From Myxococcales bacterium (GTDB lineage Bacteria; Myxococcota; UBA4151), in assembly GCA_002722845.1 (NCBI GenBank), contig PBND01000009.1:1-35719 (forward strand): a DNA stretch of 35,719 nucleotides. Direction: 5' to 3'. Both the position numbers and the translations under genes were made by a program. This document shows, piece by piece, positions 1,573 to 24,739 of this stretch. Under the pieces are notes generated by a model that was given only the letters and a program-made list of their open reading frames with translations, was not told the origin of the DNA and made no database searches. The number at the start of each line of letters is the position of its first letter. Position 1 is the stretch's first letter.

Positions 1573-5875
<4,303 letters not shown>

Positions 5876-6481: not shown

Positions 6482-7497
6482 ATGATGTTATCTTGATCGG
6501 CTCGGCCCTACCGAGCTTCTTCCTCGCCCACATGATCTACAAAGCTGATCGATACAAAGAGCCGATCGGGAAGTTCATATTTGCCTTCGTGATCGGCGTG
6601 CTGTCGCCCATCGTGACCCTGTTCTTTTCCGGCATGTTCGCAGGGATCTTTCCCGTAGAATCCAACGCCTGGACTCTTGCGCTGTTGGGCGCTGGCGTGC
6701 CCGAGGAATTGGGTCGCTTCTTGATTTTGTTGCTGCTTTGCAAGGTCTGGAAGGATGTGAATGAGCCTTTTGACTGCGTGGTGTATGCTGCGGCGATTTG
6801 GGCTGGATTCGCCGCGGTCGAAAATGTGCTCTATGCGGTCAATTTTGGGGCCCAGGGTGAGTCGCCTCTCTTCATCATCGCCATGCGTGCTGCCCTCTGT
6901 TCCACCGGGCATACGGCCTGGGGTGTCATCGTGGGTGCCTATGTGGGCATGGCGATGTTTGGTAAAGGCAACAAGATCGCATGGGCTCTCAAGGGCCTCG
7001 GCATCGCGATCATCCTTCATACGGTCTACGATGGTCTGCTCTTTTCTGTGAAAGATGGCGGCGCTGCCATGAACGGGCTGTGGGCCGTTGTTGTCGATGG
7101 GGTCACCCTCGTGATGGCCGTCCTGATCGTACTCCGGATGAGCAGGATTCAGAGCTTCAGCGACGGCGAAGGTCAGAACTTAATGATGCAGGTCCGACTG
7201 ATGCGACGATTCCGTCCCGATCGGGGAGATGGGGTCAATCAACTGGCGAAGGGGCTTGGGGTGCTGGGTGTGATCCAGATTCTCTTGGTGCTCTTTTTCG
7301 CGGCAACGACCTACTTCGCTGCCCTCTTGTTGGCCTCTGGGGTGTATTTGGCCGTGATCGGTGGCGCCATCACTGGGGCTTTGGGTTACAAAACCTGGGG
7401 GGCGCTGTGGCGGCGCATCGAATTGACGGAAGCCGCTGACGCCCCGGTGCTCGCAGCCGAGGCAGGGACTCAACCGGAAGATGAAGCCTCCGCTTAG
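6478..7497 (+). CDS. prsW: PrsW-family intramembrane metalloprotease-like protein
   Basis: This is a polytopic membrane protein of 339 residues. PrsW-type motifs appear in order: E76-E77 in GVPEELGR, E115-N116 in GFAAVENVLY, H145 in STGHTAWG and H181 in ILHTVYDG, all in or beside hydrophobic segments. PrsW in Bacillus starts cleavage of the anti-sigma factor RsiW, and the wider CPBP/PrsW superfamily includes other membrane proteases. The start at 6478 overlaps the stop of the DksA-like gene (ATGA) and has CGAGGAGAGAGG upstream. No sigma/anti-sigma pair is nearby, so the substrate is unknown. The C-terminal part adds further hydrophobic segments (roughly residues 195-215 and 255-305) and an acidic Ala/Glu tail. 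Its stop overlaps the convergent DUF4215 gene by 4 bases. Confidence 0.8.
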   Translation: MNDVILIGSALPSFFLAHMIYKADRYKEPIGKFIFAFVIGVLSPIVTLFFSGMFAGIFPVESNAWTLALLGAGVPEELGRFLILLLLCKVWKDVNEPFDCVVYAAAIWAGFAAVENVLYAVNFGAQGESPLFIIAMRAALCSTGHTAWGVIVGAYVGMAMFGKGNKIAWALKGLGIAIILHTVYDGLLFSVKDGGAAMNGLWAVVVDGVTLVMAVLIVLRMSRIQSFSDGEGQNLMMQVRLMRRFRPDRGDGVNQLAKGLGVLGVIQILLVLFFAATTYFAALLLASGVYLAVIGGAITGALGYKTWGALWRRIELTEAADAPVLAAEAGTQPEDEASA

Positions 7498-9668
7498 TTT
7501 GGCAATTCGATCCCCACGATGGTGGACTGGTTGCCGTTGTTGGTGCCCCAGCAGTAGATCCAGCCGATGCCTTGCTCATTGCACGCAAGGCCAGCGGGAC
7601 CGGCTGCACCCTGGCAGTTGCCGAGATCGTGCTGACTCAACTGGGCCCCTTGAGCGTTGAGTCGATAGAGGCGAATGGCCGGATCGTTTTGGTTGTGTCG
7701 ATAGGCCAAAGCCCAGATGTTCTGGCCGTCGTAACAGAGGTCCGCAATGCCTTCTCCGATTCCCGTATCTACGGTGCTGCGTATGTCATTGGGGCTACCG
7801 GCTGGGGTAAACCGAAGCTGCCGTAGCGATCGCCAGTCGTAGCTTGTGGAGTGGTTGGCCCGGACCAGTTGGTCGCCCACGAAGGTCAATGGGTAGCCCC
7901 CGTAGGCCACCTGTTCGTTGCCGTGGTTGGACTTGGCCCCCCCACGGGTCAGTCGGTGCATGTCCTGACCGCCGCCGTTACCCGTGTAATCGGCGATGAT
8001 GAAGTGGTCCTCGGCACAGGCGACCGAGGTCATATGTTGGAGATTGGCCTGAAGCGATCCGGTTTGTTGGCCGGTGGCCGGGTCGATGAAATAGAGGGGG
8101 TGGTTCCCTTGGATGGCGAGAACCAAGCGCTGTTGAGCACCATCCCAACACATGCCTTGGGGATGAAAGTTCCAGCCAGAATAGGCTGGGACATTCACCG
8201 TGCCGGTGACGCCGGGGCCTTCCGCGTTGCAGTCCCCGTCACAGCCATCATCGGCCGCCAAATTCCCATCGTCGCACTCCTCTTCGCCCTCATGAACAAA
8301 GCCATCACCACACGCGGCCTCGACACAACCGCTTAAACAGGCATCTTCATTTTGATCGTTGCCATCGTCACAGGCTTCGAAGCCTTCTTCTCCCACCTCT
8401 AAGTTTTGGCGCTGGATCCCATCACCACAGCGAGCCTCCTCACAATTGGCGAGGCAGTCGTCGGCATCGTTCTCGTTACCGTCATCGCAGATCTCGAAGT
8501 TCGGATCGCCGACCTCCAGGTCGGCCCGCAAGAAACCATCGCCACAGCGGGCCAGTTCACAGCCGCTCGGGCAGCGGTCGTCATCGTTGGCGTTCCCATC
8601 ATCACAGGCTTCGTAGCCCGGCGCAGCCGGCTCGAGGTCTTGCCGGATAATGCCATCACCACAGCGGGCTTCTTCGCAGCCGTTCGTGCAGTGATCGATA
8701 TTGCTTCGATTGCCATCGTCGCATTGTTCACCTTCTTGGACCACACCATCGCCACAACTGGCTCGGGCTTGGCTTTGGCAACCGTTGCTGCACAGATCAT
8801 CATCCACTCGGTTGCCGTCGTCGCAGTCTTCCACGCCAATGTGTAAAATCGCATCACCGCATTCGGCGACCCGACAGGAACCGGTACATGCGTCGCTATC
8901 GACGAGATTACCATCGTCGCAGGCTTCCTGGTCGTTCCAGAGGATCCCGTCCCCGCAGCGGGCTGCCGCGCAGGTGTTGAGACAGGCATCTTCGTTCACC
9001 GTGTTGCCATCGTCGCAAAACTCTTCGCTTTGGACGATCCCATCGCCACAGGTGCTGGGTTGGCAGTTGGCACAGGTGTCGGTGGGGTCCTCATTGCCGT
9101 CATCGCAGCCCTCACCCGGCCCCAGGATCCCGTCACCGCAGCGATGGAGTTGGCAGTTGCTTAGGCAGTCATCTTGATCCTCGTCGTTACCGTCGTCACA
9201 GGCCTCAAAACCGGCTGCATCAGGTGCAAGATCGCTGCGCACAACCCCATCGCCACAGCGGGCCAGTCGACAATCGCGCCGACAAGCATCGGTGTCGGTT
9301 TCATTGCCGTCGTCACAGGCCTCAAAGCCGAGGTCACCTTCTGCAAGGGCCGCGGCCACGACGCCGTCACCGCAGCGAGCCAGTTCGCAGTTGGTGCGGC
9401 AGAGATCGTTGTCCACGGTATTGCCGTCATCGCAGGCTTCGTAGCCCGGGTCGCCGGGAGCACCGTCAGTACGTTGAATCCCATCGCCACAACGGGCCAG
9501 TTCACAGGCGTTGGTACAGGGGTCTGTGTTGTCTTCATTACCATCATCGCAGAACTCACCGGCTTCGAGTTCCCCATTGCCACAACTGGCTTCGGTCTCT
9601 CGGACCACCACCTGTTCACCGGGACAGGCGAGGATGAAGGCGAGTAGGAAAAGGGGCCATCTGGACAT
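7494..9668 (-). CDS. DUF4215 cysteine-rich repeat lipoprotein with C-terminal beta-propeller-like head
   Basis: The 724-residue protein starts with a lipoprotein signal (MSRWPLFLLAFILAC, Cys15), and AGGAG precedes the ATG by 7 bases. Residues about 29-480 are 13 consecutive Myxococcus cysteine-rich repeats, each CGDG...E.CDDGN...D.C...C, alternating short (about 27 residues) and long forms. After the last repeat comes about 240 residues with propeller-like strands: WNFHPQGMCWDG, LYFIDPATGQQTG, VACAEDHFIIADY, GIADLCYDGQNIWAL and GLACNEQGIGWIYCWG. I read this as an NHL/SMP-30-like beta-propeller head on a rigid disulfide stalk anchored to the outer membrane. Ligand and role are unknown; adhesion or sensing is an inference. 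Its stalk matches that of the 22352-24739 protein in register, while the heads are unrelated. Confidence 0.88.
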   Translation of the reverse strand: MSRWPLFLLAFILACPGEQVVVRETEASCGNGELEAGEFCDDGNEDNTDPCTNACELARCGDGIQRTDGAPGDPGYEACDDGNTVDNDLCRTNCELARCGDGVVAAALAEGDLGFEACDDGNETDTDACRRDCRLARCGDGVVRSDLAPDAAGFEACDDGNDEDQDDCLSNCQLHRCGDGILGPGEGCDDGNEDPTDTCANCQPSTCGDGIVQSEEFCDDGNTVNEDACLNTCAAARCGDGILWNDQEACDDGNLVDSDACTGSCRVAECGDAILHIGVEDCDDGNRVDDDLCSNGCQSQARASCGDGVVQEGEQCDDGNRSNIDHCTNGCEEARCGDGIIRQDLEPAAPGYEACDDGNANDDDRCPSGCELARCGDGFLRADLEVGDPNFEICDDGNENDADDCLANCEEARCGDGIQRQNLEVGEEGFEACDDGNDQNEDACLSGCVEAACGDGFVHEGEEECDDGNLAADDGCDGDCNAEGPGVTGTVNVPAYSGWNFHPQGMCWDGAQQRLVLAIQGNHPLYFIDPATGQQTGSLQANLQHMTSVACAEDHFIIADYTGNGGGQDMHRLTRGGAKSNHGNEQVAYGGYPLTFVGDQLVRANHSTSYDWRSLRQLRFTPAGSPNDIRSTVDTGIGEGIADLCYDGQNIWALAYRHNQNDPAIRLYRLNAQGAQLSQHDLGNCQGAAGPAGLACNEQGIGWIYCWGTNNGNQSTIVGIELPN
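8229..9584 (-). repeat. 13-unit DUF4215 (Myxococcus cysteine-rich) coding repeat array
   Basis: There are thirteen units of about 81-105 bp encoding CGDG...CDDGN...C...C. The most conserved DNA is the CDDGN block, which appears on the + strand as GTTGCCATCGTCACAGGC-like words. Units differ enough that the array is old rather than newly amplified. It is the stalk of the lipoprotein at 7494-9668. Confidence 0.9.
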
Positions 9669-9757
9669 GGTGAACTCCTGCCCTCAGTGTAGATCGAGAG
9701 GACAGTCGCTGTCACGGGCCGGTGAATCTGCTAGAAAGCCAGCGCCAAGGAGTTCCA

Positions 9758-10891
9758 TTGCGCCCCCTTCTCGCCCTTGTGTTGATGTTACTGACTGCTT
9801 GTGGGCCCGGTGAGCCCTACAGCGTGCTCAAAGCCCAAGGCGTGAATCGCTATGTGGGCATGGCACAGATTAAGGAAGAGGTGGTCCAGGGAATCGACCG
9901 GACGGTGACCTTCGAACGGGCCACGGGGCCCGCCTGCTTGCGGGGCGCTGACTATCGGGTCTCGACCCGGGAGACGGGCGCAGATGAGCTCATGATTTTC
10001 CTCGCCGGTGGGGGGGCCTGCTGGAAGGATCGATGCACCGCCATCGAAGAAGCAAACAGTGGCATCTACCCGATGGGCGTCTTGCACAATGGGAGCGAGA
10101 CCAACCCTTTTGCCGCCTGGAACCTCCTCTACCTTCCCTATTGTGATGGGAGTCTGTTTGCGGGGGATGTGGACATCGATGATGATGGCGATGGACGCAC
10201 GGATCGTTACCATCGAGGTTTGCGGAACCTCACCGCAGCCCTCGATGTGGGCAAAGCCACCTTCCCTACACCGACGAAGATTCTTCTCGCCGGCAGCAGC
10301 GGCGGTGGCTTTGGGACGGTGATCGCTGCCATCGCGGTCCGCATCACCTGGCCTGAGGTCCCGCTCGTCATCATGAATGATTCGGGCATCGGCGTGGCAA
10401 AAGAAGACGACAAAGGATTCATCCGGCGCTTGCTTGAAGAATGGAACGCCATGAGCCTGGTGCCCAGCGGCCGAGAGGACCTTTTGGCGAACGGGCATCT
10501 GAGCGAGTTTATCAAATGGCAGCTGGATGAAGACCCGCAACTGCGGGTGGGGGCTTTTAGCTTTGCTGAAGATTCGGTGGTCTCGGAGGTGTTTTTGGAG
10601 ATCGACCCGCAGCAGTTCTGCGAGGTGGCGAGTCGGGAAACCGCTGCCATAAACCGAGCATTTCCAGACCGATATCGCTATTTTATCGCCCCTGGCGATG
10701 CCCACACAGTCCTCTATTCCGAGACAGGGATCGGCGTGACGGGAAGTATTTTTGGCGAGGAGAGCGCCGCCGCGAGGGGCGTGAACCTGGGGGGCTACGA
10801 CAGTACCGTGGTGCAAGGTCAAAGCATCAGCCAATGGATGCGCGCGCTGGTGGCAGGCAGTGATGCTTGGGTGAACAGGCCGGTGCGATGA
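9758..10891 (+). CDS. Pectinacetylesterase/Notum-family hydrolase-like lipoprotein
   Basis: The alpha/beta-hydrolase motifs are those of the pectinacetylesterase (CE13)/Notum family: GGACW near the oxyanion region, PYCDGSLFAGD, the nucleophile elbow GSSGGG with S181, and a late His in APGDAHTVL. The family removes acyl groups from carbohydrate or protein. The start is decided by the ribosome-binding site: AAGGAG followed 5 bases later by TTG at 9758 gives a clean lipoprotein signal MRPLLALVLMLLTAC (Cys15). A GTG at 9722 would add 12 residues and lacks such a site. The product is 377 residues. An acidic DIDDDGDGRTD stretch resembles a calcium-binding loop. The gene overlaps the following YaiI-like gene by ATGA. 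The substrate is unknown; an extracellular polysaccharide ester is plausible. Confidence 0.82.
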   Translation: MRPLLALVLMLLTACGPGEPYSVLKAQGVNRYVGMAQIKEEVVQGIDRTVTFERATGPACLRGADYRVSTRETGADELMIFLAGGGACWKDRCTAIEEANSGIYPMGVLHNGSETNPFAAWNLLYLPYCDGSLFAGDVDIDDDGDGRTDRYHRGLRNLTAALDVGKATFPTPTKILLAGSSGGGFGTVIAAIAVRITWPEVPLVIMNDSGIGVAKEDDKGFIRRLLEEWNAMSLVPSGREDLLANGHLSEFIKWQLDEDPQLRVGAFSFAEDSVVSEVFLEIDPQQFCEVASRETAAINRAFPDRYRYFIAPGDAHTVLYSETGIGVTGSIFGEESAAARGVNLGGYDSTVVQGQSISQWMRALVAGSDAWVNRPVR

Positions 10892-11337
10892 AGATTTGGA
10901 TCGACGGTGATGCGGCACCGAAGCTGATGAAGGACGTGGTCTATCGCTGTTCTGATCGTTTGCGTTTGCCGGTGACGGTGGTGGCCAACAGTTGGCAGCA
11001 GACCCCTCGGGGAGACCGAATCAAAATGATCGTGGTGGGGGACGCCTTTGATGCAGCCGATGATTACATCGCCGAGCAGTGTGCCCCGGGCGACTTGGTT
11101 GTGACCGCGGACATCCCCTTGGCTGCTCGCATCGTGGCCTCAGGGGGCGCGGTGATCACGCCGCGAGGCGAGGAACTCGATTCGGAATCGATCGACGAGC
11201 GTCTTGCCATGCGAAACTTTATGGAAGAGATGCGGAGCGCGGATCTGGTCAGTGGGGGACCACCACCCTACGGTGATCGGGACCGCCAACAGTTTGCCAA
11301 CACCCTTGACCGGGTCGTGACCCGCCTGCGCCGCTAG
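10888..11337 (+). CDS. yaiI: YaiI/YqxD family (DUF188) protein
   Basis: The 149-residue cytoplasmic protein has the full signature of the UPF0178/DUF188 family: IWIDGDAAP at the N-terminus, DLVVTADIPLA in the middle and FANTLDR near the C-terminus. The family has a PIN-like acidic pocket but no settled biochemical role. The start at 10888 overlaps the stop of the esterase-like gene (ATGA). Pairing with an exported esterase is probably operon convenience, not a functional link. Confidence 0.9.
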   Translation: MKIWIDGDAAPKLMKDVVYRCSDRLRLPVTVVANSWQQTPRGDRIKMIVVGDAFDAADDYIAEQCAPGDLVVTADIPLAARIVASGGAVITPRGEELDSESIDERLAMRNFMEEMRSADLVSGGPPPYGDRDRQQFANTLDRVVTRLRR

Positions 11338-11350
11338 CCTGGAGTTTATC

Positions 11351-12451
11351 ATGCGTTCTTTTTCTGTCCTCGTGCTGATCTGTGCGGCGGGATGTTTGCC
11401 CGATGACGCTTCGTCCTCCTCAAGCGGAGGGGTGCGCGGTGCAAGCGGCGGCCAGGATGCCGGGCCGACCTCAGGGGCATCGGATGCGGGTTCGAGCTCC
11501 CGGGTGGATGCTGGCGGGGGCGCTCAGGGGCCGGATGCGGGGGGGACGCAACCCAGCTCACCTCTGGTCGATAGCGACTGTCTTGATGGGCAGTATCGGG
11601 AGACGATGGTGGACCCTGACGCTGAGATCGCCGATCTTGTGGGGAACTTTTCCAGTCCAGATTTTATGATCTACATTGAGGAGGTCCTCAATCGCCGCTA
11701 TCCTCTGGGTTGGCACATCATCGACCGCGGGCTTCGGGAGGGGGCCGCGATTGGTCACTGCATCGATTTCTTTATGCGGGATCGAAGCTCTGCGGAACGA
11801 GTGAACTCCCAGTTGTCCACGGCCGTGCATGAATGCGGTCACTTTTTGAATATGAGTCTCAACGATGACGCCTTCGTCATTCGCCGGGACCTCCAGATCA
11901 CCTGTCAGGATGGGGACAGTACGGATCGCTTTGGGCGCACTTTCGCTCGTAGCCGGATCAATGATGATGACTACAGCCGACTGAGGCCCCCATGCCAAGG
12001 CAATCGCAGTCCGGATTGTGATTCATACGCAGACATTTATCTCGATGGGGACCCTGATAACGACGACTTTGAGGGCGGTGACCAGGGCTTCAACATGCTG
12101 GCGGAGGAGGTGGTTCAATACATCAACAGTCTCGCCACGAGCTACGCCATCTACGATCAAAGCCGTTACAGTACCTCGGCCCGCGATGGGATCCTCACCC
12201 ATCTTTGGTGGATCCAGCGCTACTTAGCCCATGCTCGGGACCGCTACCCAGCAGCGCACCAGTTCATTTTGGGCAACGATTGTTATCGGCGCCTGATCCT
12301 CACCATTTGGGGTCGGGCTTGGCTTTATCTCGAAGCCACTGAGGAGATCAGCCAGTTAACGATCAATGGGGGAGAGATCGAAACCTTGGTCCTAGACCCC
12401 AACCTGCTCGCTGAAATCGAAGCGGTGCGAGAAGCCCATGGCTGTCGCTAG
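11351..12451 (+). CDS. Putative zinc metallopeptidase lipoprotein (HECGH motif)
   Basis: The 366-residue lipoprotein has the signal MRSFSVLVLICAAGC (Cys15), GGAG 6 bases before the ATG, then about 55 residues of Ser/Gly/Asp/Ala-rich linker typical of surface-exposed lipoproteins. The C-terminal domain contains H160-E-C-G-H164 in AVHECGHFLN, an HExxH zinc-protease signature. E252/E253 in NMLAEEVVQY, about 88 residues later, is a candidate third zinc ligand, as in gluzincins. Acidic stretches (LDGDPDNDDFEGGD) could bind calcium. I do not recognise the overall family, so protease activity is an inference from the motif and its placement in a folded domain. Its 3' end lies 9 bases from the convergent MopE-motif lipoprotein. 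Confidence 0.72.
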   Translation: MRSFSVLVLICAAGCLPDDASSSSSGGVRGASGGQDAGPTSGASDAGSSSRVDAGGGAQGPDAGGTQPSSPLVDSDCLDGQYRETMVDPDAEIADLVGNFSSPDFMIYIEEVLNRRYPLGWHIIDRGLREGAAIGHCIDFFMRDRSSAERVNSQLSTAVHECGHFLNMSLNDDAFVIRRDLQITCQDGDSTDRFGRTFARSRINDDDYSRLRPPCQGNRSPDCDSYADIYLDGDPDNDDFEGGDQGFNMLAEEVVQYINSLATSYAIYDQSRYSTSARDGILTHLWWIQRYLAHARDRYPAAHQFILGNDCYRRLILTIWGRAWLYLEATEEISQLTINGGEIETLVLDPNLLAEIEAVREAHGCR

Positions 12452-12460
12452 CCAGCCCAT

Positions 12461-14470
12461 TCAGCCGTTGCAGTCGAAGTAGAGGTCAAAGCCACGCAAA
12501 ATCGGAGTGATTTGGGGGTCATCGCTGCTGAGCTCCGCCTCGATCATCGCCGTACTCAGGGTGGGGAGTTCGAAGAGCATGGCCGGCAGGTCGCTATGCT
12601 CCGAGCTCACCTCGTAGGGGCCATGGGCGACCGCTTGGGCCAATTCTCCTTCGCTCGCTGCCACCCGAATACGGAACCGGATGCGGGTGCCGGGTGGTGT
12701 TGTGGTGACCGCATCAAAGCTCTGCCAGGAGGTTTGCCGCTTGGAACAGCCTTGGACCACGGTCCGGTAACTGCCCCTCGGCAAGGTGAAGTTGCGAAGG
12801 GCAAAGCCCGTGAAGTCGCTGTAGGTATAGGGGGATTGACCCACCCGGACTCGAACCATGGCGCCACCATTGTCCGGATCCACGCGGCTTGCCAGATCAC
12901 CACCACCGCTCACGCCCCAAATTCGGCCGGTGAAGTCGACCCCAACACCTACGGTGGCCGATCCACCCACCGAGTGATTGCTCAGGAAATCCATCGAGTC
13001 CGCATCCCAGGCCGCCACGGAGCCGCCTTCGTTGGTCGCCGCCCAGATGCGGCCTTGGTTGTCGGCCGCCACGCCACGAATCATCCACTGGACGGGGACG
13101 CTACGCCAATGCCCACCCCCCTGGAGCGGGTCGGCCACGGCCTGACCCTGATCATCAAAGTTGGGGTCATAGCTGGTGAGGCGTCGACCAAAGAAGCCGC
13201 CAAGCCAAAGTCTACCGCGGGCATCTGCGGCGATGCCGTAGGAGCCGCCCCAGGGACTTTGAATCATCTGTCCGGCTCGCCCGGTGGCTGAGTCTACACC
13301 GACCAATGTGCTCGGCGGCATCACACCGGCGCCGAGGCTCGTGGACCAGACCACCCCCTGGGCGTCGATGACGGCGCCGTAGGGCTGGTGGGCGATATCG
13401 ACGGGATTGGTGAGCCCGGGCCGACGAACCAGTTCACCGCTTTCGCCCTGCAGGTTGTAAAATCGCCGCTCGTTAAACAGACCGACCCAGAGGTTGCCAT
13501 TGGGGTTTTGGGCATCGCCACCGTCGATGGCGAGGGCCCGAGGGACACCGGCCTGTCCACCCACGGGGAGCGTCCAAAGTATGCACTCGTCTTCCATCCC
13601 CAGATACTCGGTGGGGTCGTTGACGTCGATGCTGCCATTGCCGTTGCGGTCGGCGCTGGTATCGATTCGGCCATTGCCGTTGCGGTCGTTGCATTGGGTG
13701 TCGGCGTACTTGGTGACCGAGCCCTGTCCTTCGAAATTGCGATTCGCCACAAAGGCGTTGCCGGCGAGATCGATGGCCGTGCGCGATGGGCTTTGATCTG
13801 CGTGGGGCGTGAGCCCAGCCCTGTTGGGGCCAACGGAGGGATAGCGGGCCACTTCTTGTAGGAGGTCCGTATCCACTTTGGAGACGGTGCCTTCGCCTGC
13901 ATTGGCGATCCAGAGGCTGTTGGTGGCGACCTGTTCACCCGCCTCTCCAGGAATCAGGACGATGTTGCCATCGTCGTCTCGCTCCAGGCCCGAGTTGGCT
14001 GCCGGCTCTTCAAAGGCTTGGCCGTGGGCTGGGCCCCGGGCAACGGGCTCGCCAGGCTGGCTCTGGGACGAGCAGCCCTGGGGAAAGCCTTCGTCAATAT
14101 CGCCATCGCAGTCGTCATCGGTTTGGTTGCAGGTCTCTTGGGACTCCGGCAGCCGCTGGCCCGTGCATGGGCCCCAGCGTCCGTCGACGCATTCGCGCAC
14201 ACCGCGCAGACAGATGCCGATGCCCGCGGTAGCTTCTGGGCCTTCATAGCAACGGGCCCGGGTATCGGCATCGCAAGGACAGCCTTCGCGGAGTTCGCCC
14301 TCGTCGCAGCCACTAGGATCTGGACGCTGTGAACCATCGCCTGGATCGCCGCCCTGGTCGCCGATTTGCCCGCATTGCCCGCCTGGGCAGGTGGGACCAT
14401 GAGATGCCGGGTGATGGGGCTCGGAACAGGCTGTCGCGGCGAGGGCGATGAGCACAAAGAGACGGGGCAT
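12461..14470 (-). CDS. MopE-motif lipoprotein with beta-propeller domain
   Basis: The 669-residue lipoprotein has signal MPRLFVLIALAATAC (Cys15) with GGGAG before the start. Residues about 55-130 carry the myxobacterial cysteine module CDEGELREGCPC...GICLRGVREC and the MopE-type metal-binding motif CNQTDDDCDGDIDEG. From about 180 on, repeats such as NSLWIANAGEGTVSKVD, GNLWVGLFNERRFYNL, GVVWSTSLG, GRLWLGGFFGRRLTSYD and GRIWAATNEGGSVAAWD indicate a beta-propeller of the Vgb/NHL kind. Two 12-residue calcium loops, DRNGNGRIDTS and DRNGNGSIDVND (about residues 262-285), are inserted into the propeller. The last about 100 residues may form a beta-sandwich. Function is unknown; a surface binding or lyase-like role is speculative. 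Confidence 0.85.
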   Translation of the reverse strand: MPRLFVLIALAATACSEPHHPASHGPTCPGGQCGQIGDQGGDPGDGSQRPDPSGCDEGELREGCPCDADTRARCYEGPEATAGIGICLRGVRECVDGRWGPCTGQRLPESQETCNQTDDDCDGDIDEGFPQGCSSQSQPGEPVARGPAHGQAFEEPAANSGLERDDDGNIVLIPGEAGEQVATNSLWIANAGEGTVSKVDTDLLQEVARYPSVGPNRAGLTPHADQSPSRTAIDLAGNAFVANRNFEGQGSVTKYADTQCNDRNGNGRIDTSADRNGNGSIDVNDPTEYLGMEDECILWTLPVGGQAGVPRALAIDGGDAQNPNGNLWVGLFNERRFYNLQGESGELVRRPGLTNPVDIAHQPYGAVIDAQGVVWSTSLGAGVMPPSTLVGVDSATGRAGQMIQSPWGGSYGIAADARGRLWLGGFFGRRLTSYDPNFDDQGQAVADPLQGGGHWRSVPVQWMIRGVAADNQGRIWAATNEGGSVAAWDADSMDFLSNHSVGGSATVGVGVDFTGRIWGVSGGGDLASRVDPDNGGAMVRVRVGQSPYTYSDFTGFALRNFTLPRGSYRTVVQGCSKRQTSWQSFDAVTTTPPGTRIRFRIRVAASEGELAQAVAHGPYEVSSEHSDLPAMLFELPTLSTAMIEAELSSDDPQITPILRGFDLYFDCNG

Positions 14471-14552
14471 GATTGGACTCCCAGCAAGCGGTTTCGCGCG
14501 CTGGACTATCCGAAAATTGAGCGTTCGCCGCTATCGGACGATCCTCGGGGGG

Positions 14553-14583
14553 TTTACAAGCTGGGTCAAGCCGCGCCTAGATA
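14553..14583 (+). promoter_or_regulatory. Weak candidate sigma70-type promoter upstream of the 16-repeat gene
   Basis: TTTACA at 14553-14558 and TAGATA at 14578-14583 are separated by 19 bases, about 30 bases before the ATG at 14612. The spacing is long and the match partial. It lies in the 141-base divergent spacer between the MopE-motif lipoprotein and the RCC1-headed protein. No transcript evidence is available from sequence. Confidence 0.25.
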
Positions 14584-14611
14584 GGGGCGGAACTTATGGG
14601 GAATCCCACCG

Positions 14612-17494
14612 ATGCCAAGCCGGCCTTTGCTATTGAGCTTTGTGCTCATTGCCACATCAGGCTGTGGTCAGGCCTTGCCCGACTTGATTCTGGATCGCAG
14701 CGGCAGCGTGTGTGGTGACGGGGTCACCCAGTCGGGTGAAGCCTGTGATGACGGCAACGATAACGACTTTGATGCCTGTCTCTCCACCTGTCGAGAAGCC
14801 AGTTGTCACGATGGGTTTCGGCGCAGTGACATTATGCCAGGGATGGCTGGCTATGAGGCCTGTGACGATGGGAACACGGATGATGACGATGGCTGTGTCC
14901 TCGACTGCATACAAGCTCGCTGTGGCGATGGCCTGATTCGACGAGATCTCGATTTGCAGGTTCCCGGTTTTGAGGCCTGTGACGATGGTGATGACAGCGA
15001 CCCTAATGACGGCTGTCACGGTTGCAAGGCCCCGGGCTGTGGTGATGGCGTCGTTCAGGCCAATGAGGAATGTGATGACGGAAATGGGGTCGACAACGAC
15101 GCCTGTATTGAATGTCTCAACGCTCGCTGTGGTGATGGTGTCCGGCGGGTCGGTGAAGGCGGGGAGGCCTGCGATGATGGAAATGTGGACAATTCCGACG
15201 ATTGCACAACGGATTGTGAGCCGCCTCGCTGCGGCGACGGCTACCGGCAGGATGGTGAAGCTTGTGATGACGGTAATGGAAGAGACGCCGACGCTTGCAC
15301 CAACGCTTGCGAGGAAGCGACCTGTGGCGATGGGATCGTGCGTCGGGACCTTGCAGAGGGGCTCCCTGATGCCGAGGGCTGCGACGATGCCGATGAGGAC
15401 AACCATGACGCCTGTACAAATGACTGCTTGCGAGCTCGTTGCGGTGACAACATCGTCCAGCGTCATTTTGAGGCCTGCGATGACGGCAATGAAAGTCCCG
15501 ATGATTCTTGCGTGAACTGTGTCCAGCCGACCTGCGGCGATGGAGTGGTTGACGCCGATGAGGAGTGCGATGACGGCAACGAAGACAACCGAGACGCCTG
15601 TACGGACCTCTGTCTCCACGCTCGCTGCGGTGATGGATTTCAACGCCAAGACCTCGCCCAGGATGAAGCGGGTGGGGAGTTCTGCGATGATGGCAACGAA
15701 CTGGAGCAGGACGCGTGCCTAAACAACTGCGAACTCAGCCGCTGTGGTGATGGTGTCCAGCGTTTAGATCGGTTGCGGGGGGAGCCGGGCTTCGAAGCCT
15801 GCGACGATGGGAACGAGGTCCCTGATGATGGTTGCACAGATGCCTGCCGCAGTGGCTGCGGCGACGGTCTCCTGGCCGAGGGGGAAGCCTGTGACGATGG
15901 CAACGACGAAGACGCCGATGCCTGCACCAATGGCTGCACCGAGGCCAGGTGTGGTGATGGTGTCCAGCGGCAGGATCTCGACCCAGAGGCCGCCGGCTAT
16001 GAGTTCTGCGATGATGGCAACGAGTCCAGTGAAGATGGCTGTACAGACATCTGCCGAATCGCTCGCTGTGGCGATGGGGTCGTCCGGCGTGACTTGCAAC
16101 CGGATCAAGACGGTTTTGAAGCCTGCGATGACGGGAATGAGGACAACACAGATGAATGCACGGTGATGTGTCAGCCGCCCCGTTGTGGTGATGGCATCCT
16201 CCACGAGGGTGAAGCCTGTGATGATGGGAATGCAGTGGCCGGCGATGGCTGTCTTCTCGACTGCGAAGCCGCCGTCTGTGGCGACGGGGTTCGCCGGCTC
16301 GATCGGGTCGATGGCGAACCCGGCTACGAGGCCTGTGACGATGGCAATATCGAATCGGGCGACGGGTGTCGCGGCGATTGCAGCAAGGTCGAGGTGATCA
16401 GCATCTGGGCCGGTGCTCAAAACTCCTGCGCAACTTTTGGTAATGGTCGTGCACGGTGTTGGGGGCGTAATTCTCAGCACAGAGAAGTTGAGCGAATCGC
16501 TGATGAAGAGGATGTGGTCTGGGCCGCGTGTATTAGTCAGAGGCTCGGTGTTTTTGGCGACCAGCCGGTCTACACCACCCTTCACCGAAATGGCCGTGTT
16601 AAGTGTGTCGCTCCCGCAGGGACTCGCTACCGCCCTTATGCCTGTGGTCATGCGGACCCTTGGCTGATGGTGGCTCCCGACCAACCTCTAGAGGGTGTTG
16701 TGCAGGTCGACCTTGATAGAGATTTGGGTTGTGCACTCACCGGCGAGGGGCAGGTCTATTGTTGGGGGGAAAGAGATAATGTCGGAACCGATGGGTTTCT
16801 CGCTGACCGAGTTGTTCCGATCGAGTCGCAATTCGAATTTGCCGAGATAGCGGTCGCTCCATCTCTGGCCTGTGGTCGAGCACGAGAATCAGGCCAGGTC
16901 TATTGTTGGGGCGATTATGTTAACCACCATTATGATCAGCCGACACTGATTGCTGGCACCGCGAATACAAACAGCTTAGCGATGGGAGAAGGCTTTGGGC
17001 TTGCAATGACGGAGGGGGGGATACTTGCTTGGGGTAGCGCTGGTTGTGGTCATTTTCCCTATTTCACTGGCCAGCACTCTTGCTGGGGCGGGCGGCTAAG
17101 GTTTTCTCAACATTCTCAGCTCATTGATTGGCCTGCCGATGAGGACCGATGGATTCAGATGGCCGGCTCGGGTTTTTCCTCAAAACCGGTGGACCAGACG
17201 ATTGCCTTTAGTTGTGGTGTGACCGCCAATCACCAGATGACATGTGTCGGACGTACGCCATGGCGCCCCTTGTTACCAGGCGACCGCAACTTCGATGAAT
17301 TAGCGCAAGATGCGAGGCAGCCTTCGCTCGCCCCGCTTCCCGATGGCGAGGAGGTCGTGGAAGTGAGGCTTGGTTATAGTCATGGCTGTGCCCGCACTCG
17401 GATCGGCCGTGTGTATTGTTTTGGTGGCAACGAGCATGGGCAGGCAGGTTTAGGAACTGAATACCTTAACCAACCAACCCTGATTATTCCCTAG
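14612..17494 (+). CDS. DUF4215 cysteine-rich repeat lipoprotein with RCC1-like head
   Basis: The 960-residue lipoprotein has signal [18 protein letters not shown] (Cys18). Residues about 34-590 are 16 DUF4215 repeats; the second starts CHDG and the seventh has CDDAD in place of CDDGN. The head (about 591-960) repeats C-A/G...G-x-V/A-x-CWG units such as [26 protein letters not shown] and IGRVYCFG followed by NEHGQAGLG. This is the signature of bacterial RCC1/BNR-type beta-propellers, here with conserved Cys that could form disulfides. The head-coding DNA is lower in GC than the stalk (hand counts: 128/240 versus 147/240 in sampled lines). Only a weak GGGGA ribosome-binding site precedes the ATG. 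Binding partner is unknown. Confidence 0.88.
14711..16381 (+). repeat. 16-unit DUF4215 coding repeat array
   Basis: There are sixteen units with the core CDDGN, including irregular copies (units 2, 3, 7 and 8). Long units carry an insert of the form QRxDLxxGxxGYEAC; short units lack it. This is the longest uninterrupted array on the + strand and forms the stalk of the RCC1-headed protein. Confidence 0.9.
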
Positions 17495-17523
17495 CCGTGC
17501 TGCTTTTGGCACAATGCTTGGAG

Positions 17524-18150: not shown

Positions 18151-18296
18151 CGGGGTTATCTCCATCCACCTCTCGGCTACTGTCACTCTTGATCGGCAGG
18201 AGCGATGGGAAGTTGATAGGACGTCTGACCGATAGGCCTCGGTCGCCGAAAATGTCGGGCCGAAATCTGCAGTGAACTGGGGCAGGAAAGCGGCGG

Positions 18297-19223
18297 CTAA
18301 GGGCTGGCTACTTGAGCTTCTGTTAGCCGTTCTTCGGCCATGCGTAGGTAGGCCGGGTCGAGATCAAAGCCCAGGTAGTCCCGTTCCAGTTGTAGGGCTG
18401 CCACCGCCGTGGATCCGGAGCCGAGGAAGGGGTCGAGAACAAGATCACCTTTGAAGGTATAGAGTTCGATTAGGCGGCGAGGCAGCTCCAAGGGAAATGG
18501 CGCAGGATGCCCGACACGCCGGGCGCTTTCCGGTGCAAAGGACCAGACGTCTAAAGTGTCCCGCATAAAGGCTTCCTTTGAAATACTGTCTTCAAAAGGA
18601 AGTCCCTTAGTTTGTCGCTGCTTTTTTGTCAGTGCCCGGTTGAAGCGCCCCTTGCAGGCCACAATGATCCGCTCCGACAGGTCTCGCAGCACCGGATTGC
18701 TTGCGCTCTGAAAAGAGCCCCAAGCACAGCTGCCCGTGGCCCCTTTGCCTTTTTGCCAAATGATCTCAGCCCGTAAGAGCAGCCCTAACTCGCCCTCCAA
18801 GAGGCGAATCACATCGGCCGAAAGGCTTCGGTAGGGCTTCCTGCCCAAGTTGGCCACGTTAACTGCAATGCGCCCACCAGGCTCAAGGACCCGGACGCAC
18901 TCGCTAAAGACCCGGTGGAGCATCTGCAGGTAGTCTAGGTAGCTCGCTGGGACCTTGCCTTGGCCGAGTTCTGCCTCATACTCCTTACCGACAAAATACG
19001 GCGGTGATGTCACCACCAGGGCGACGCTGTTGTCGGGGACCTGGCTCATGTCTGAGCTGTCGCCACAGATGAGGCTGTTTCTCAGGGGCGAGACGACGAC
19101 CGTCTCGTCGCTCGATAGGGTGGGTACTTCGAAGCGTTCGTAGAAGGCACTGGCGTCGTGCCCCTCTCTTTTCGAGGTACCGAAAGCTTGGGTTTGCGTG
19201 CCGCGGGAGGCGCGATTTGCCAT
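18297..19223 (-). CDS. Solitary site-specific DNA methyltransferase (beta-type motif order, SPPY)
   Basis: The 308-residue protein has catalytic motif IV TSPPYFVGKEYE (S73-P-P-Y76) ahead of the AdoMet-binding motif DPFLGSGSTAVAA (about residue 265), which is the motif order of the beta amino-methyltransferase class. SPPY is more common in N4-cytosine than N6-adenine enzymes, so m4C is the first guess. The region between them (about 160-240) would be target recognition. No restriction endonuclease, specificity subunit or mobility gene flanks it, so it looks like an orphan regulatory or protective methyltransferase. The first about 45 residues are poorly conserved-looking and the true start could be internal. 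Target sequence cannot be read from the protein. Confidence 0.9.
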   Translation of the reverse strand: MANRASRGTQTQAFGTSKREGHDASAFYERFEVPTLSSDETVVVSPLRNSLICGDSSDMSQVPDNSVALVVTSPPYFVGKEYEAELGQGKVPASYLDYLQMLHRVFSECVRVLEPGGRIAVNVANLGRKPYRSLSADVIRLLEGELGLLLRAEIIWQKGKGATGSCAWGSFQSASNPVLRDLSERIIVACKGRFNRALTKKQRQTKGLPFEDSISKEAFMRDTLDVWSFAPESARRVGHPAPFPLELPRRLIELYTFKGDLVLDPFLGSGSTAVAALQLERDYLGFDLDPAYLRMAEERLTEAQVASP

Positions 19224-19247
19224 GAGTTGATCCGCTCGGTCGGCCGC

Positions 19248-20012
19248 CTAGAAAGCCCATTCTAGTTCGGTTTTTAACTCGGTGTCGGTGGCCGATACCT
19301 CGTCGTAGGGGGCGGTATCATGCCGGGCCACATATTTCAGGTTGAGGGCGAGACGTCCTTCGATCTCGATACCTAGGGTGGTCTCAGAGAAGTAGCGAAT
19401 GGAGTTAAAGTCGTCGAACCGGGGCTGGGCGAAGACGGTTTGACCAAAACTGACCCGCTCGGTCAGTGCCGTCGATAAGCTGAAGTAATTAGACCAGCGA
19501 TGGCGGTGGAAGCTTTGATCCGAGTCAGTGGCTTTTACCTCGGTGTTTGTCCGTTCGGATTCGGACATGTAAGCCGTGCCGAGATGGAGGGTTCCGCCCT
19601 TCCATGCCGCCACTTTGATCCGTGGACCCACACCGACCAGGCCTCGAAAGGCGAGGCGGCGGAAAGGGTCACTTTCGTGTTGCAGGAAACCTTCCAGTGT
19701 CAGGCGCTCATTGAGTTCATGGCGATAGCGAAGGTGCTCAAAAGTGGAGGTTGCATGGGCTACACCTCCCTCGGCAGCGTACTCCCCCCGAAGGACCAAG
19801 AAGGCCAACCGATTGGGCCAGCGGTAGCGGGTGGTCATCTCTCCTTCCAATTGGAGTTCATCCACGCTGCCCGTCGACCACTCAACAGCGGCGGCCGCTT
19901 TGCCGCTCAGGCCCATGCTGTCTTCGTCGGCTTCGCCGAGGACATTGATGATGCCAGCCTGGGCGCTTGGTGCGCTCAGAACCAGGAGAAGAACAATAAA
20001 GCGATAGTTCAT
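19248..20012 (-). CDS. DUF481-like outer-membrane beta-barrel protein
   Basis: The 254-residue protein starts at 20012, 5 bases after AAGGT, with a Sec signal MNYRFIVLLLVLSAPSAQA. The mature part is a series of alternating amphipathic strands: GKAAAAVEWSTGSVDELQLEGEM, LTLEGFLQHESDPFRRLAFRG and VGVGPRIKVA. It ends in a C-terminal Phe (ELEWAF), the usual outer-membrane-barrel terminus. This resembles the DUF481/YdiY salt-induced outer-membrane family, whose function is not established. A frame extension to 20174 gives no signal peptide at its N-terminus and overlaps the neighbour. The gap to the upstream membrane-protein gene is only 7 bases, so they are probably co-transcribed. Confidence 0.82.
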   Translation of the reverse strand: MNYRFIVLLLVLSAPSAQAGIINVLGEADEDSMGLSGKAAAAVEWSTGSVDELQLEGEMTTRYRWPNRLAFLVLRGEYAAEGGVAHATSTFEHLRYRHELNERLTLEGFLQHESDPFRRLAFRGLVGVGPRIKVAAWKGGTLHLGTAYMSESERTNTEVKATDSDQSFHRHRWSNYFSLSTALTERVSFGQTVFAQPRFDDFNSIRYFSETTLGIEIEGRLALNLKYVARHDTAPYDEVSATDTELKTELEWAF

Positions 20013-20019
20013 GCTGACC

Positions 20020-20655
20020 TTAACTGAATCGATTTTGTTTGGAGAGATCGAGACCGGACCTGCCGAGCATACTAAAGGTGATACAGCCGGCCAGGCCGAA
20101 CCAGAGGTAATCGATGGGCGACACGAATTCGGTGAAATTTGTGGCGAAGCCGACAAAGTCGATGAAGCCAGCATCGTCCAGCATCTGAACCTGGGGGTTG
20201 TCGAGGATCGTCCACCACTTGCCGAGGAGGATGCCGGTGCACGCGCAAACGACGCCGACGAGTTGGGTCAAGGGGCCACGCATGCCGCCACTGACGATCG
20301 CAACCGCAATCCCAACGATAAAGCCGACACCCAGAGCGATGTAGCCCACTTCATAGCCGGTCGCGATGGCGATCTTTGCCCAGATCCAGCCACCGAGCGC
20401 GGCTGCGGTCATCCCACCGGCAGCGGCACCGGCAAGTTTCGGCGCAGTGACGGTTTCATCGGCAGCATTTTCTCGCAGTTGAGCGATCAGTGGTGTGATT
20501 GCAGTCCGCGCATCCTCGACGGAAAGACCGAAGTCCCTGGCGAAGTCGCTGATCACTTCTTCTGTGCTCTTGCCCTCGTTGAGTTTGGCAATCACGTAGT
20601 TTGTAATCGCTTCCGCAACTTCTTCTTCCGAAAGTTCTTCATTGTCGTCGGTCAA
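20020..20655 (-). CDS. Small integral membrane protein of unknown function
   Basis: The 211-residue protein begins at TTG 20655, with GGAGGA 8 bases upstream. Residues 1-70 are soluble, acidic and helical (EELSEEEVAEAI...DFGLSVEDARTAI), like a small helical adaptor. The rest has about four hydrophobic segments, near 76-97, 101-121, 129-146 and 181-197, with Gly/Ala-rich packing (GYIALGVGFIVGIAVA). I recognise no catalytic motif. It lies 7 bases upstream of the outer-membrane-barrel gene and downstream of the cupin gene on the same strand. A longer open frame on the opposite strand here is hydrophilic and unsupported. Confidence 0.7.
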   Translation of the reverse strand: MTDDNEELSEEEVAEAITNYVIAKLNEGKSTEEVISDFARDFGLSVEDARTAITPLIAQLRENAADETVTAPKLAGAAAGGMTAAALGGWIWAKIAIATGYEVGYIALGVGFIVGIAVAIVSGGMRGPLTQLVGVVCACTGILLGKWWTILDNPQVQMLDDAGFIDFVGFATNFTEFVSPIDYLWFGLAGCITFSMLGRSGLDLSKQNRFS

Positions 20656-20709
20656 GGCATGTTCCTCCGAGCCGGGGGGTACGAGCCTAATCGAAAGTCC
20701 AGAGTGGGA

Positions 20710-21243
20710 CTAGCCCCTGAAGACGAGGCCTTTGCGAGCGTCATCGGAGTAGAGGTTGAGGGTCCAGCCCTCTTCCAGGCATTCCACCGAATGGATGAAA
20801 TGATCGTAGCGCTCGCCTTCGCCCACGTGGAACAGGTGGTCGCCAGCTTCCATCACCGTCTCGCCCGTGGCTTCGACCCCGTCGTCGGTCAATCGATACA
20901 TCACCATGCGGTACTTTCCCGAGAGCGCTGCGTACATGACCACGGGAGGGTGCCCGTGGACGGGGGTGATGCAGCCGATACGCCAGTGGGCGAGGACGCC
21001 CTCAAATCCTGGCTCTGTCGGGGTATGAAGGGCCCCCACAACGGTGCGCCGGTAGCAGGCGACGACAGGACATTGAAGTTCGTTGGGTAGGGTGTCGAGA
21101 TCGATAGCATCCATCCGCTTACGGATGGCCGCAAAGCGCTTGGACCAAGCCATGTCTTGTTGGTCCAAAACGGCGCAGAAGTCCGCCCATGGCTGGGCCA
21201 AAATCTGACGATCATGGAAGGTGTCTGAGCGTCCAACGACCAT
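20710..21243 (-). CDS. Cysteine-dioxygenase-like cupin protein
   Basis: The 177-residue cytoplasmic protein has a cupin metal site resembling type I cysteine dioxygenase: HWRIGCITPVHGHPP with H96 and H98, a Tyr/Gly strand (MYAALSGKYRMVMYRL), and H151 in HFIHSVE as the likely third iron ligand. Cysteine dioxygenases oxidise cysteine (or another thiol) to the sulfinate. The position of the canonical cupin Glu holds Met, as expected for the three-His thiol dioxygenases. GGGGAAG precedes the ATG at 21243. Alternative members of the thiol dioxygenase family act on 3-mercaptopropionate, so the substrate is open. Confidence 0.78.
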   Translation of the reverse strand: MVVGRSDTFHDRQILAQPWADFCAVLDQQDMAWSKRFAAIRKRMDAIDLDTLPNELQCPVVACYRRTVVGALHTPTEPGFEGVLAHWRIGCITPVHGHPPVVMYAALSGKYRMVMYRLTDDGVEATGETVMEAGDHLFHVGEGERYDHFIHSVECLEEGWTLNLYSDDARKGLVFRG

Positions 21244-21356
21244 GGTGACTTCCCCGTAGGGACAGAGTCATTCATGGCCTCTGCCGGGTCAAGGGCCCGC
21301 ATCCAAGTGAGGCAAATCAATGCGGAAGCTGAAGAGGCCAGACTGGGAAGTGGCGC

Positions 21357-22307
21357 CTAAAATCGCTCTGTATGTGCGTGGCAGTAGGGGGCTTTACCGG
21401 TCTTGATGTAGTAATCTTGATGGTATTCTTCGGCGGGCCAGAAAATCCCTGCCGGCTGAACCTGGCTCACGACCGCATAGCCCTTCTTTTGCAGCAATTC
21501 GACCAGTTCGAAGACGATCTGTTCTTCTTCCTCATCCCCCACAAAGACAGCGGAGCGATATTGGCTGCCGACATCGGGCCCCTGCCGATCTTTCTGTGTC
21601 GGATCATGAATCTCAAAAAAGGTCTTCGCCAGGGTCCGGTAGGTCACCTTGGTCGGGTCGTAGACCACCCGGACGGTCTCCGCATGCCCCGTACTGCCAC
21701 TGACCACCTCCCGGTAGCTGGGGTTGCGTTTGGTGCCTCCCATGTAACCTGATTCGGCTCGCAGCACGCCCGGAACCTTCTCAAGGAGGTGCTCCACCCC
21801 CCAAAAGCACCCGCCCGCAAAGAAGGCTTCCTTGTAGGGGACGTCACTGAAGTCTAGCGCCACGGAATTAACGCAATGCCTCGTATCTTTATCGTTCATT
21901 TGCTCGCCGCGAAAGACATGGCCCAAATGCCCGCCGCAGCGGGCACAGCGAATCTCTGTTCGCCGGCCGTCGGCATCGGGCACCTCCCGAACCGCACCTT
22001 TGATCGCCGAATCAAAGCTCGGCCAGCCCGTCCCGGAGTTGAACTTCGCCTTCGAAGAAAAGAGGGGCGCACCACAGCGGTTGCAGGTGTAGTTGCCTTT
22101 GCCTTTATGTTTCAGCAGGGCGCCGGTGAAGGCTCGCTCCGTGCCGCCCTTCTCGATGACGTCTTTCGCTTTGCCGGTGAGCTGCTTCCAGCCGCTTCGG
22201 GCTTTCGGGTCCGTCGACTGCTGGGCCGTGGTTGGTTGGGCCAGAGCCCAATGGGCCGTGGCAAAGCCAACGAGCAGAGCGAGCGTGACTTTAATCTGTC
22301 GAGACAT
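21357..22307 (-). CDS. msrAB: Exported bifunctional methionine sulfoxide reductase, MsrB-MsrA order
   Basis: The 316-residue fusion starts with a Sec signal (MSRQIKVTLALLVGFATAHWALA, cleavage near ALA-Q). MsrB comes first: zinc ligands C75/C78 and C121/C124, GTGWPSF, and the catalytic Cys C145 in RHCVNSVAL. MsrA follows from about 160: GCFWG with C167, then ESGYMGG and EEYHQDY. The two domains reduce the R and S epimers of methionine sulfoxide, and the signal puts them in the periplasm. The better-known PilB-type protein has MsrA before MsrB and a thioredoxin domain; here the order is reversed and no reductase domain is attached, so an external electron donor is needed. It lies 44 bases after the large DUF4215 gene on the same strand. 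Confidence 0.95.
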   Translation of the reverse strand: MSRQIKVTLALLVGFATAHWALAQPTTAQQSTDPKARSGWKQLTGKAKDVIEKGGTERAFTGALLKHKGKGNYTCNRCGAPLFSSKAKFNSGTGWPSFDSAIKGAVREVPDADGRRTEIRCARCGGHLGHVFRGEQMNDKDTRHCVNSVALDFSDVPYKEAFFAGGCFWGVEHLLEKVPGVLRAESGYMGGTKRNPSYREVVSGSTGHAETVRVVYDPTKVTYRTLAKTFFEIHDPTQKDRQGPDVGSQYRSAVFVGDEEEEQIVFELVELLQKKGYAVVSQVQPAGIFWPAEEYHQDYYIKTGKAPYCHAHTERF

Positions 22308-22351
22308 GAGCCCCCTCGCTCAGAACATCCGGTCGCAGTGCTTCTTCCCAG

Positions 22352-24739
22352 CTAGCGGCAAGCGCAGATGCGAGCGCCGGAATAGTTGCCGTTGTTATAA
22401 CCTGAACTGCCGCAGTCGGCGCTTGCGTTCACTTCCGCCCGGGATTCGGTCACGTTACAACCCGTTACTTCCGCGTTAAAGCCGTTGAATACCCATGTGT
22501 TCGACCAGCACCCAAGGCCGAAATAGGACCGATCCCAGTTGTTGCTGTGGAGGGTGAAGTGCCCAGCGTCCGTGGGGCCCACATTGCCGTCCTGTCTTCG
22601 AAAGCTCAGGCCCAAATGCTCCCGAACCAGCCGGTGGTAGTTCGTCTGGTTCGCTGAACCGTAACTGACAAGGCCATCGAGATCGCCCTCATGGCAACTC
22701 CGCCCCCGGGCCGCACATGCGCTTGTACAGGACTCAGAATTGCTTCTGGCAAGGGTGACGAGATAGGAGTTCCCGTCGATCGTGACCCGTTTGAGGTGGT
22801 CGCCTAGGGCCTCGGAGCAATCACCTTCGCAGTCCGGGCCGCCGTCACAGGCTTCCACCCCTGCCTGGACATGGCCATCGCCACAAATGGCGTCGGCGCA
22901 ATCGATACAGGCATCGGTGTTGATCTCATTCTCATCATCGCAAGCTTCACCGGCCTGGACGATGCCATCACCACAACGGGGCGTGGTGCAGGCGTTGCTG
23001 CAATCATTGTCGTTGATCTCATCGCCGTCATCGCAGCCTTCTCCCGCTTGTTCGATGCCATCACCGCACCGCGGCGTGGTGCAGGCGTTGCTGCAATCGT
23101 TGTCGTTGATCTCATCCCCATCATCACAAGCCTCGACGCCATCCTGGATCTGGCCGTCACCACAGCGGGCAGCGGCGCAATTGTTGAGACAGGCATCGAT
23201 TTGGACTTCGTTGCCATCATCACAGGCTTCACCTGCTTGTTGGAAACCGTCGCCGCATCGGGCTTCGGCACAGGCGTTGGTGCAGGTATCCTCGTTGATT
23301 TCATTACCGTCATCACAGGCCTCAAAGTTGATCTGACCTTGGGCCACGTCGGCCCGCAGGATGCCGTCGCCACAACGGGCTTGAAGACAGTTGTTCGTAC
23401 ACGCGTCATTGGCCACGTCGTTGGCATCGTCGCAGGCTTCGTAGCCAGCAGCGCCAGGCTCTAGATCCCGGCGCAAAATGCCGTCGCCGCAACGAGCCTG
23501 TTCACAGGCGTTGCTACAAGCATCTACATTGGAGCGATTGCCATCATCGCAGGCTTCGTCTTCGTGAACGATACCGTCCCCACAAGTCGCCAGGGGCCGG
23601 ATCTGACAGTCTGAGGTGCAGCCGTCGTCTTCAATCGCATTGCCATCGTCACAGGCTTCGTAACCATCGGCACCTTCGGCAAGGTCCGCTCGTAGGAGGC
23701 CATCGCCACATCGGGCATGTTCGCAGGCATTCGTGCAGGCGTCCTGGGCCACCACGTTGCCATCATCGCAGGCTTCTTCGATCCCGAGGAGGTGGCCATC
23801 GCCGCAGCGGGCGACCCGGCAATCGTTGAGACAGTGGTCCGTTTGCTCGTCGTTGCCGTCATCACACTGCTCGTAGCCGGGATCTTCCGCTTGCAGGTCG
23901 CTGCGGTGAATGCCGTCGCCACAGCGGGCGGGGAGACACTGGGTTGTACAGGCATCCTGAGGGACGGCGTTGCCATCGTCGCAGCTTTCTTGGTCGGCCC
24001 AGAGGATCCCATCGCCACAGCGGGCAGCGGCACAGCTGTTAAGACAGGCATCGGTTTCGACCTCATTGCCATCATCGCAGAACTCGCCGTCTTGAACATA
24101 ACCATCACCGCAGGTGCTGGGGGTGCAATTGGCACAGGCATCGGTGGGGTCCTCGTTGCCGTCATCACAACCCTCCCCAGGACCAAGGACGCCGTCACCG
24201 CAACGGGCTTCTTCACAGTTGCTACGACATGCGTCGTCGTCGGAGGCGTTGCCATCATCGCAAGCCTCGTAGCCGGCTTCATTTGGCTCGAGGTCGGTCC
24301 TAAGGACCCCATCACCGCAACGCGCAGGCTCGCAGTCGGTTTTGCAGGCGTCAGACTCCACCGTGTTGCCATCATCGCAGGCTTCAAAGCCGAGTCCGCC
24401 TTCACTGACGTCGGCCCGGACGACCCCGTCGCCACAGACGGCCACTTGGCAGGTGTTCAGGCAGGCATCACCATCCAAATCATTGCCATCGTCACAGGTC
24501 TCATGGCCGACTTCCCCGATGGATAGATCCGTTCGGGTCACCCCGTCACCACAGCGAGCGAGATCGCAGCCATTGGTGCATTCATCGGAGTTGACCTCGT
24601 TGCCATCATCACAGGCTTCGCCCAATTCAAGCTCGCCATTACCACAGGAGCCCTGTTGTTGTTGGACGACCACCTGTTCCGAACAAGCGGCTGCGAGGCT
24701 GATGCAGATCAATAGGCTGAGTTTTTTGGGGTTGGTCAT
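22352..24739 (-). CDS. DUF4215 cysteine-rich repeat lipoprotein with unrecognised cysteine-rich head
   Basis: The 795-residue product is read from the ATG at 24739 (GAGGAG upstream), which gives the lipoprotein signal [19 protein letters not shown] (Cys19); the frame extends upstream to 24883 without a signal. It carries 17 full DUF4215 repeats plus a degenerate eighteenth ([11 protein letters not shown]). Repeats 15 and 16 are nearly identical. The last about 155 residues form a head rich in Cys, Asn, Ser and Tyr ([29 protein letters not shown], and [11 protein letters not shown] at the C-terminus). I cannot assign it; the paired Cys and Trp/Gly pattern is lectin-like in feel only. The stalk is paralogous to that of 7494-9668. 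It sits between a MYXO-CTERM-like protein gene and msrAB on the same strand. Confidence 0.87.
22817..24646 (-). repeat. 18-unit DUF4215 coding repeat array (last unit degenerate)
   Basis: Seventeen regular units and one shortened unit make this the longest array of the window. Units 5-7 ([37 protein letters not shown]) match units 5-7 of the array at 8229-9584 almost residue for residue, and units 11-12 match that array's units 9-10. Confidence 0.9.
22981..23116 (-). repeat. Recent 93-bp tandem duplication within the DUF4215 array
   Basis: Bases 22981-23023 and 23074-23116 are identical except for one base, offset by 93 bp (31 codons). They encode consecutive repeats both reading [19 protein letters not shown]. 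Other units of the array are far more divergent, so this pair is the youngest event in it. Confidence 0.85.

Follow-up and report, generated by a model that had tools for sequence, protein, structure and literature searches.

The window studied here, by which we mean the whole stretch of 35,719 nucleotides of contig PBND01000009.1 from a Myxococcales bacterium, carries two lipoprotein genes, A and B (Table 1), in which arrays of DUF4215 repeats end in heads that do not resemble each other. The question it raises is whether one terminal domain was replaced by another on a conserved stalk, as a sequence-only reading of this DNA had suggested. Our answer, which we hold to be probable, is that A and B are members of a lineage-specific lipoprotein family with a conserved proximal module of seven units, whose distal units and head are replaced jointly, the heads probably binding different ligands.

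Table 1. Positions of genes A and B, their parts, and two further stalk genes used for comparison (numbering of the window)
Feature	Position	Strand	Details
Gene A	9668-7494	-	724 aa, 13 units
Gene A signal peptide, residues 1-14	9627..9668	-	Lipobox ILA-C, Cys15 next; from sequence
Gene A proximal stalk, units 1-7 (31-39-39-39-30-31-32)	8862..9584	-	Conserved family module
Gene A distal stalk, units 8-13	8220..8861	-	9-11 match B 11-13; 8-11 closest to C71; 12-13 without particular kinship to B
Gene A head, residues 484-724	7497..8219	-	241 aa, probable beta-propeller
Gene B	24739-22352	-	795 aa from ATG 24739, 18 units
Gene B signal peptide, residues 1-18	24686..24739	-	Lipobox, Cys19 next; from sequence
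Gene B proximal stalk, units 1-7 (31-39-39-39-30-31-32)	23924..24646	-	In register with A
Gene B distal stalk, units 8-18	22820..23923	-	11-13 match A 9-11; 14-18 without particular kinship to A
Gene B head, residues 641-795	22355..22819	-	About 155 aa, cysteine-rich orphan, weak C-type-lectin-like lead
Comparison DUF4215 lipoprotein, RCC1-type propeller head	14612..17494	+	Stalk outside EQVVVR family
Comparison DUF4215 lipoprotein, weak fibrinogen-like (GGGWT) head	25842..27827	-	Stalk outside EQVVVR family

The coordinates first given for the two genes are correct, both being on the minus strand, and so is the shared N-terminus, which in each protein runs from the lipobox through EQVVV into unit 1. 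On reading the sequences, both proteins were found to have a lipobox (FILA-C and LAAA-C). The DUF4215 Pfam profile matches A with an E-value of 3e-55 (184.6 bits) and B with 1e-61 (205 bits, cut-off 27), and the TIGR02232 profile matches them with 2e-63 (209.8 bits) and 1e-83 (274.7 bits, cut-off 20.8); by profile, this is the same repeat as in DUF4215 (PF13948)/TIGR02232 "cysteine-rich acidic repeat" proteins. A search by sequence for a PDB relative of the stalk gave none. The count of 57 repeat units in the window was also right (13 in A, 18 in B and the rest in two other arrays). As to the neighbouring genes, a pectinacetylesterase-family (Notum-like) lipoprotein (9722-10891, plus strand) is divergent from gene A. 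Also present are a lipoprotein in which a weak MopE-type metal-binding motif is followed by a propeller-like region (12461-14470, minus strand) and a cysteine-rich ORF without any Pfam match that is lipoprotein-like from an internal start (4550-6295, minus strand).

When units 1-7 of A and B are compared in register, their mean identity is 70.8%, as against 53.1% or less for any slid register. The proposed in-register pairing was tested by a tree of the 57 units, in which every A-B cherry is in order and none is out of order: A1-B1 (94/87), A5-B5 (100/99), A7-B7 (88/88), A9-B11 (94/68) and A13-B18 (82/75). Units 2-4, which are mutually alike inside each protein, give a weak register signal between A and B. 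Further along, the proposed equivalence of units 9-10 of A with 11-12 of B stands in part: a match of A9-11 with B11-13 (71, 62 and 62% identity) describes it better, but A10 taken singly is matched best by unit 4 of B and not by unit 12. On ranking the matches among 183 other repeat proteins, the partner gene comes first for units 1-4 and for units 5-7 of both A and B, third for A9-11 and B11-13, 103rd for A12-13 and 97th for B14-18. Therefore, the clearly shared part ends after A11/B13, that is, inside the array, 2 units short of the A head and 5 units short of the B head. The A13-B18 cherry is the sole hint of kinship further out, and these two units are only 45% identical. For units 8-11 of A the paralogue C71 scores 545 and B scores 488, and this closer likeness to C71 makes the stalk a mosaic. 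By stalk, A and B are mutually nearest (68.9% against a family mean of 58.6%), and they are sisters with support of 98/81 in one tree and, more weakly, 71/96 in a second tree.

Such stalk-head combinations could also come from the assembly, if repeat arrays had led to wrong joins in a draft of 92 contigs, and the contigs of relatives do often end inside such genes. We consider this very improbable, since the longest exact word common to A and B has 21 bases and that of any two repeat genes of the genome 40 bases, lengths that would not generally lead an assembler astray; moreover, the genes are intact single frames and the same design is seen in two independent assemblies.

The two genes had been described as a pair of paralogues, which understates the case, as this genome has about 21 genes of their family, and two genomes of a sister genus have further members. 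The genome of the window (2.68 Mb, 70% complete) has about 60 DUF4215 ORFs, about 21 of them with a lipobox-EQVVVR-type start, a count drawn from genome stretches around listed matches, so that some members may be missing. Including the two genomes of the sister genus, the family has 42 members, and 25 of the 36 members having at least 6 units show unit lengths of exactly 31-39-39-39-30-31; A and B both have this order together with the EQVVV start that defines the family. A 13-residue motif in unit 5 (with slight variants) is present in 23 of the 42 members. Of the other repeat ORFs of these genomes that are complete at the N-terminus, 3 of 83 have it, and of those from other taxa, 0 of 46. 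The EQVVVR family was not found in repeat proteins of the other taxa sampled and, on these sequence comparisons, appears to be lineage-specific. It may be noted that DUF4215/TIGR02232 arrays in other Myxococcota also carry varied C-terminal domains; what sets the present case apart is a seven-unit module with a fixed length order and an EQVVVR start that recurs in about 21 paralogues, whose heads are of about 13 types.

The claim that the heads of A and B are unlike holds, as BLAST found no similarity between the two, nor of either to the remaining heads of three genomes. Among 195 genomes of the phylum, no full-length homologue of head A was found (one marginal match, E 6e-4, over 64 residues) and no homologue of head B, and both heads were therefore modelled from single sequences. 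The model of head A is all-beta (pLDDT 62, pTM 0.68, with a low-confidence middle), and of its 172 PDB matches at E <= 0.001 the leading ones are beta-propellers with TM-scores of only about 0.5; on this model, head A is a probable beta-propeller. Head B, which has no Pfam match, gave a mixed alpha/beta model that is too poor to be final (pLDDT 39). Foldseek returned no PDB match below E 0.5 for it, and many of the weak, insignificant matches are C-type lectin domains, so that a C-type-lectin-like fold may be taken as a lead only. A check by predicted folds had been proposed along with the claim, and allowing for the poor B model, one common fold is not indicated. On dividing the heads of the 21 genes by type, eight are fibrinogen-like (COLFI/Fibrinogen_C), one is LamG, one contains TSP3 and one is weakly PPC-like. 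Of the others, three are glycine-rich, two of them alike (weak ALK_LTK match; one of these two is truncated where its contig ends) and the third different, and seven are orphans, A and B among them. This makes about 13 head types among about 21 genes, by a count based on BLAST and Pfam in which some orphans may share a fold.

These head types bear on the simplest alternative, namely duplication and divergence without exchange, in which one ancestral head drifted past recognition while the stalk was conserved. The branches are long, A and B are 67.5% identical in DNA over 717 bp, neither head has homologues that would reveal its origin, and in two pairs of head orthologues from different genera, stalk and head may have been inherited jointly. 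But the family has heads from Pfam families that are unrelated (Laminin_G_3, COLFI/Fibrinogen_C and TSP_3), and the drift of heads is not much faster than that of stalks, orthologous heads being 59-81% identical between genomes and stalks about 62-74%. Together with the case of one head type on different stalks given below, this makes drift alone improbable.

In favour of replacement of the head, like stalks with unlike heads are found in A/B (98/81), in C22_4469/C22_25469 (99/89) and, with three unlike heads, in C8_2277/C33_5235/C34_33113 (97/83). The opposite case is given by the adjacent genes C8_0 and C8_2277, whose heads are of one type (48% identical over 244 aa) on different stalks; sister stalks are rejected (AU p 0.013), and this is the one significant stalk-head mismatch. 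C66 and G002_C14_530 have a head in common at 70% identity, the latter being without the stalk signature, and the tree test gives p 0.56. C22_4469 and L207 of genome G002 (heads 56% identical) were left out because the N-terminus of the L207 gene is beyond its contig. If the genes with fibrinogen-like heads are made to form one clade in the stalk tree, this falls just short of rejection (p 0.07), and no consistent signal was found for distal units tracking the head. As judged from sequence, exchange in both directions is supported, that is, unlike heads on one stalk and like heads on unlike stalks. The pairs compatible with joint inheritance imply that exchange happens occasionally and that at least part of it predates the split of the genera. 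As to the loci, MsrAB (methionine sulfoxide reductase; 21357-22307, minus strand) lies directly after gene B, and in G002 the MsrAB gene adjoins a DUF4215 lipoprotein that has a different, short stalk and is placed on the other side. As a PrsW homologue, sought as a route to orthologous loci, was also not found in five genomes, the loci are not syntenic.

A crossover is symmetric, and the same mismatches can be read as replacement of the stalk, with each head fixed at its locus while the conserved proximal stalk spreads to different proteins by recombination or gene conversion. The C66/G002_C14_530 pair is readable as a changed stalk, and stalks are slightly more alike within one genome (59.8%) than between genomes (57.9%). 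Recent conversion tracts were not found, though, and in about 30 genes the proximal module has kept the order and length pattern of its units together with the lipobox, due to which we find stalk replacement unlikely. Stalks of neighbours on the same contig are more alike overall (p 0.001), a likeness that rests on the C17 tandem group, as it is gone once this group is removed (p 0.27). This group consists of three tandem EQVVVR genes with fibrinogen-like heads (C17:1-11500, L046), and a fourth gene is on C82 (L081); all four follow a variant order of units, 31-39-39-32-31-39-30-31-39-32-31-39, and their stalks group in a clade with full support.

Joint replacement of distal units and head thus modifies the proposed course of duplication followed by replacement of the terminal domain: the common stalk and the unrelated terminal domains bear it out, but the change takes in the head plus the distal units, since similarity stops within the array. 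We regard head replacement on a conserved stalk as well supported at the level of the family and moderately supported for the A/B pair. The comparison with diversifying adhesins or receptors, if taken to mean ongoing variation, finds no support. A system of active antigenic or phase variation, with silent cassettes as the source of new heads, would find a suitable substrate in many paralogues with common repeats, some in tandem (as in the C17 trio), and is nevertheless barely credible, as there are no near-identical tracts between paralogues in the genome, the best being about 87% over 60 bases. With no long near-identical DNA tracts left, exchange appears to be old rather than active switching.

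To explain joint replacement, we propose that the lipidated N-terminal cysteine would tether the protein and that the C-terminal head would be held off the membrane by a long, acidic and probably disulfide-bonded DUF4215 stalk. The repeat units would offer short homologies for crossover between paralogues, by which everything distal would be swapped; distal units and head would be replaced as one, most likely by unit-unit recombination, and slow divergence would come afterwards. Crossover at repeats predicts breakpoints within the array, which matches the ends of similarity in A and B. Going by the head types and the architecture, we infer that these lipoproteins are surface-exposed and that their heads bind ligands, and an adhesin or receptor role is suggested for the family. 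The propeller, fibrinogen-like, LamG, glycine-rich and small cysteine-rich heads probably bind different external ligands and may form a modular receptor/adhesin repertoire. Only tentatively would we go further, to a combinatorial surface repertoire on a universal lipid-anchored DUF4215 base, with heads and distal units moved by repeat recombination to give, in one small genome, about 21 receptors of about 13 head types, every receptor being directed at its own prey, partner or surface.

A functional analogue is TraA of Myxococcus xanthus, a surface receptor for kin recognition in which a variable domain is combined with cysteine-rich repeats (PMC13184517). TraA has C-terminal MYXO-CTERM sorting and varies within one domain, whereas the A/B family has an N-terminal lipobox and C-terminal heads that are non-homologous between paralogues. 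On direct reading, neither A (ending in ...TIVGIELPN) nor B (ending in ...ARICACR) has a MYXO-CTERM tag, that is, a C-terminal membrane helix and basic tail. In trimeric autotransporter adhesins, a long repetitive stalk presents exchangeable heads; A and B share this design and differ in the lipobox anchor and the unrelated repeat, and Pfam gave no YadA-type C-terminal anchor domain in them. In animal receptor families with domain shuffling, new surface receptors arise by domain exchange between paralogues (e.g. PMC8860441); compared with these, the present case is bacterial and old, with non-homologous heads rather than variants of one domain.

This cysteine-rich repeat is found in arrays widely across Myxococcota, yet among the papers searched none was found on DUF4215 or TIGR02232. 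With one fixed base and about 13 heads in a genome of about 2.7 Mb, the repeat acquires a testable role, that of a presentation stalk. The family also supplies a set of heads for ligand screening and a bacterial case where repeat arrays may serve as crossover sites for new receptors.

Further repeat genes and one more lipoprotein may be recorded. An ORF on contig C56 of the window's genome (G000, DUF4215 loci L039-L082) has 67 units and runs off the contig. The window also has a YHYH-domain lipoprotein with a long glycine run close to its C-terminus (30448-31629, plus strand). The stalk gene L137 (G002 C61:7393-11151) has an internal tandem copy of 828 bases at 88% identity, a recent unit-block duplication inside the array, which indicates that stalk length is still changing.
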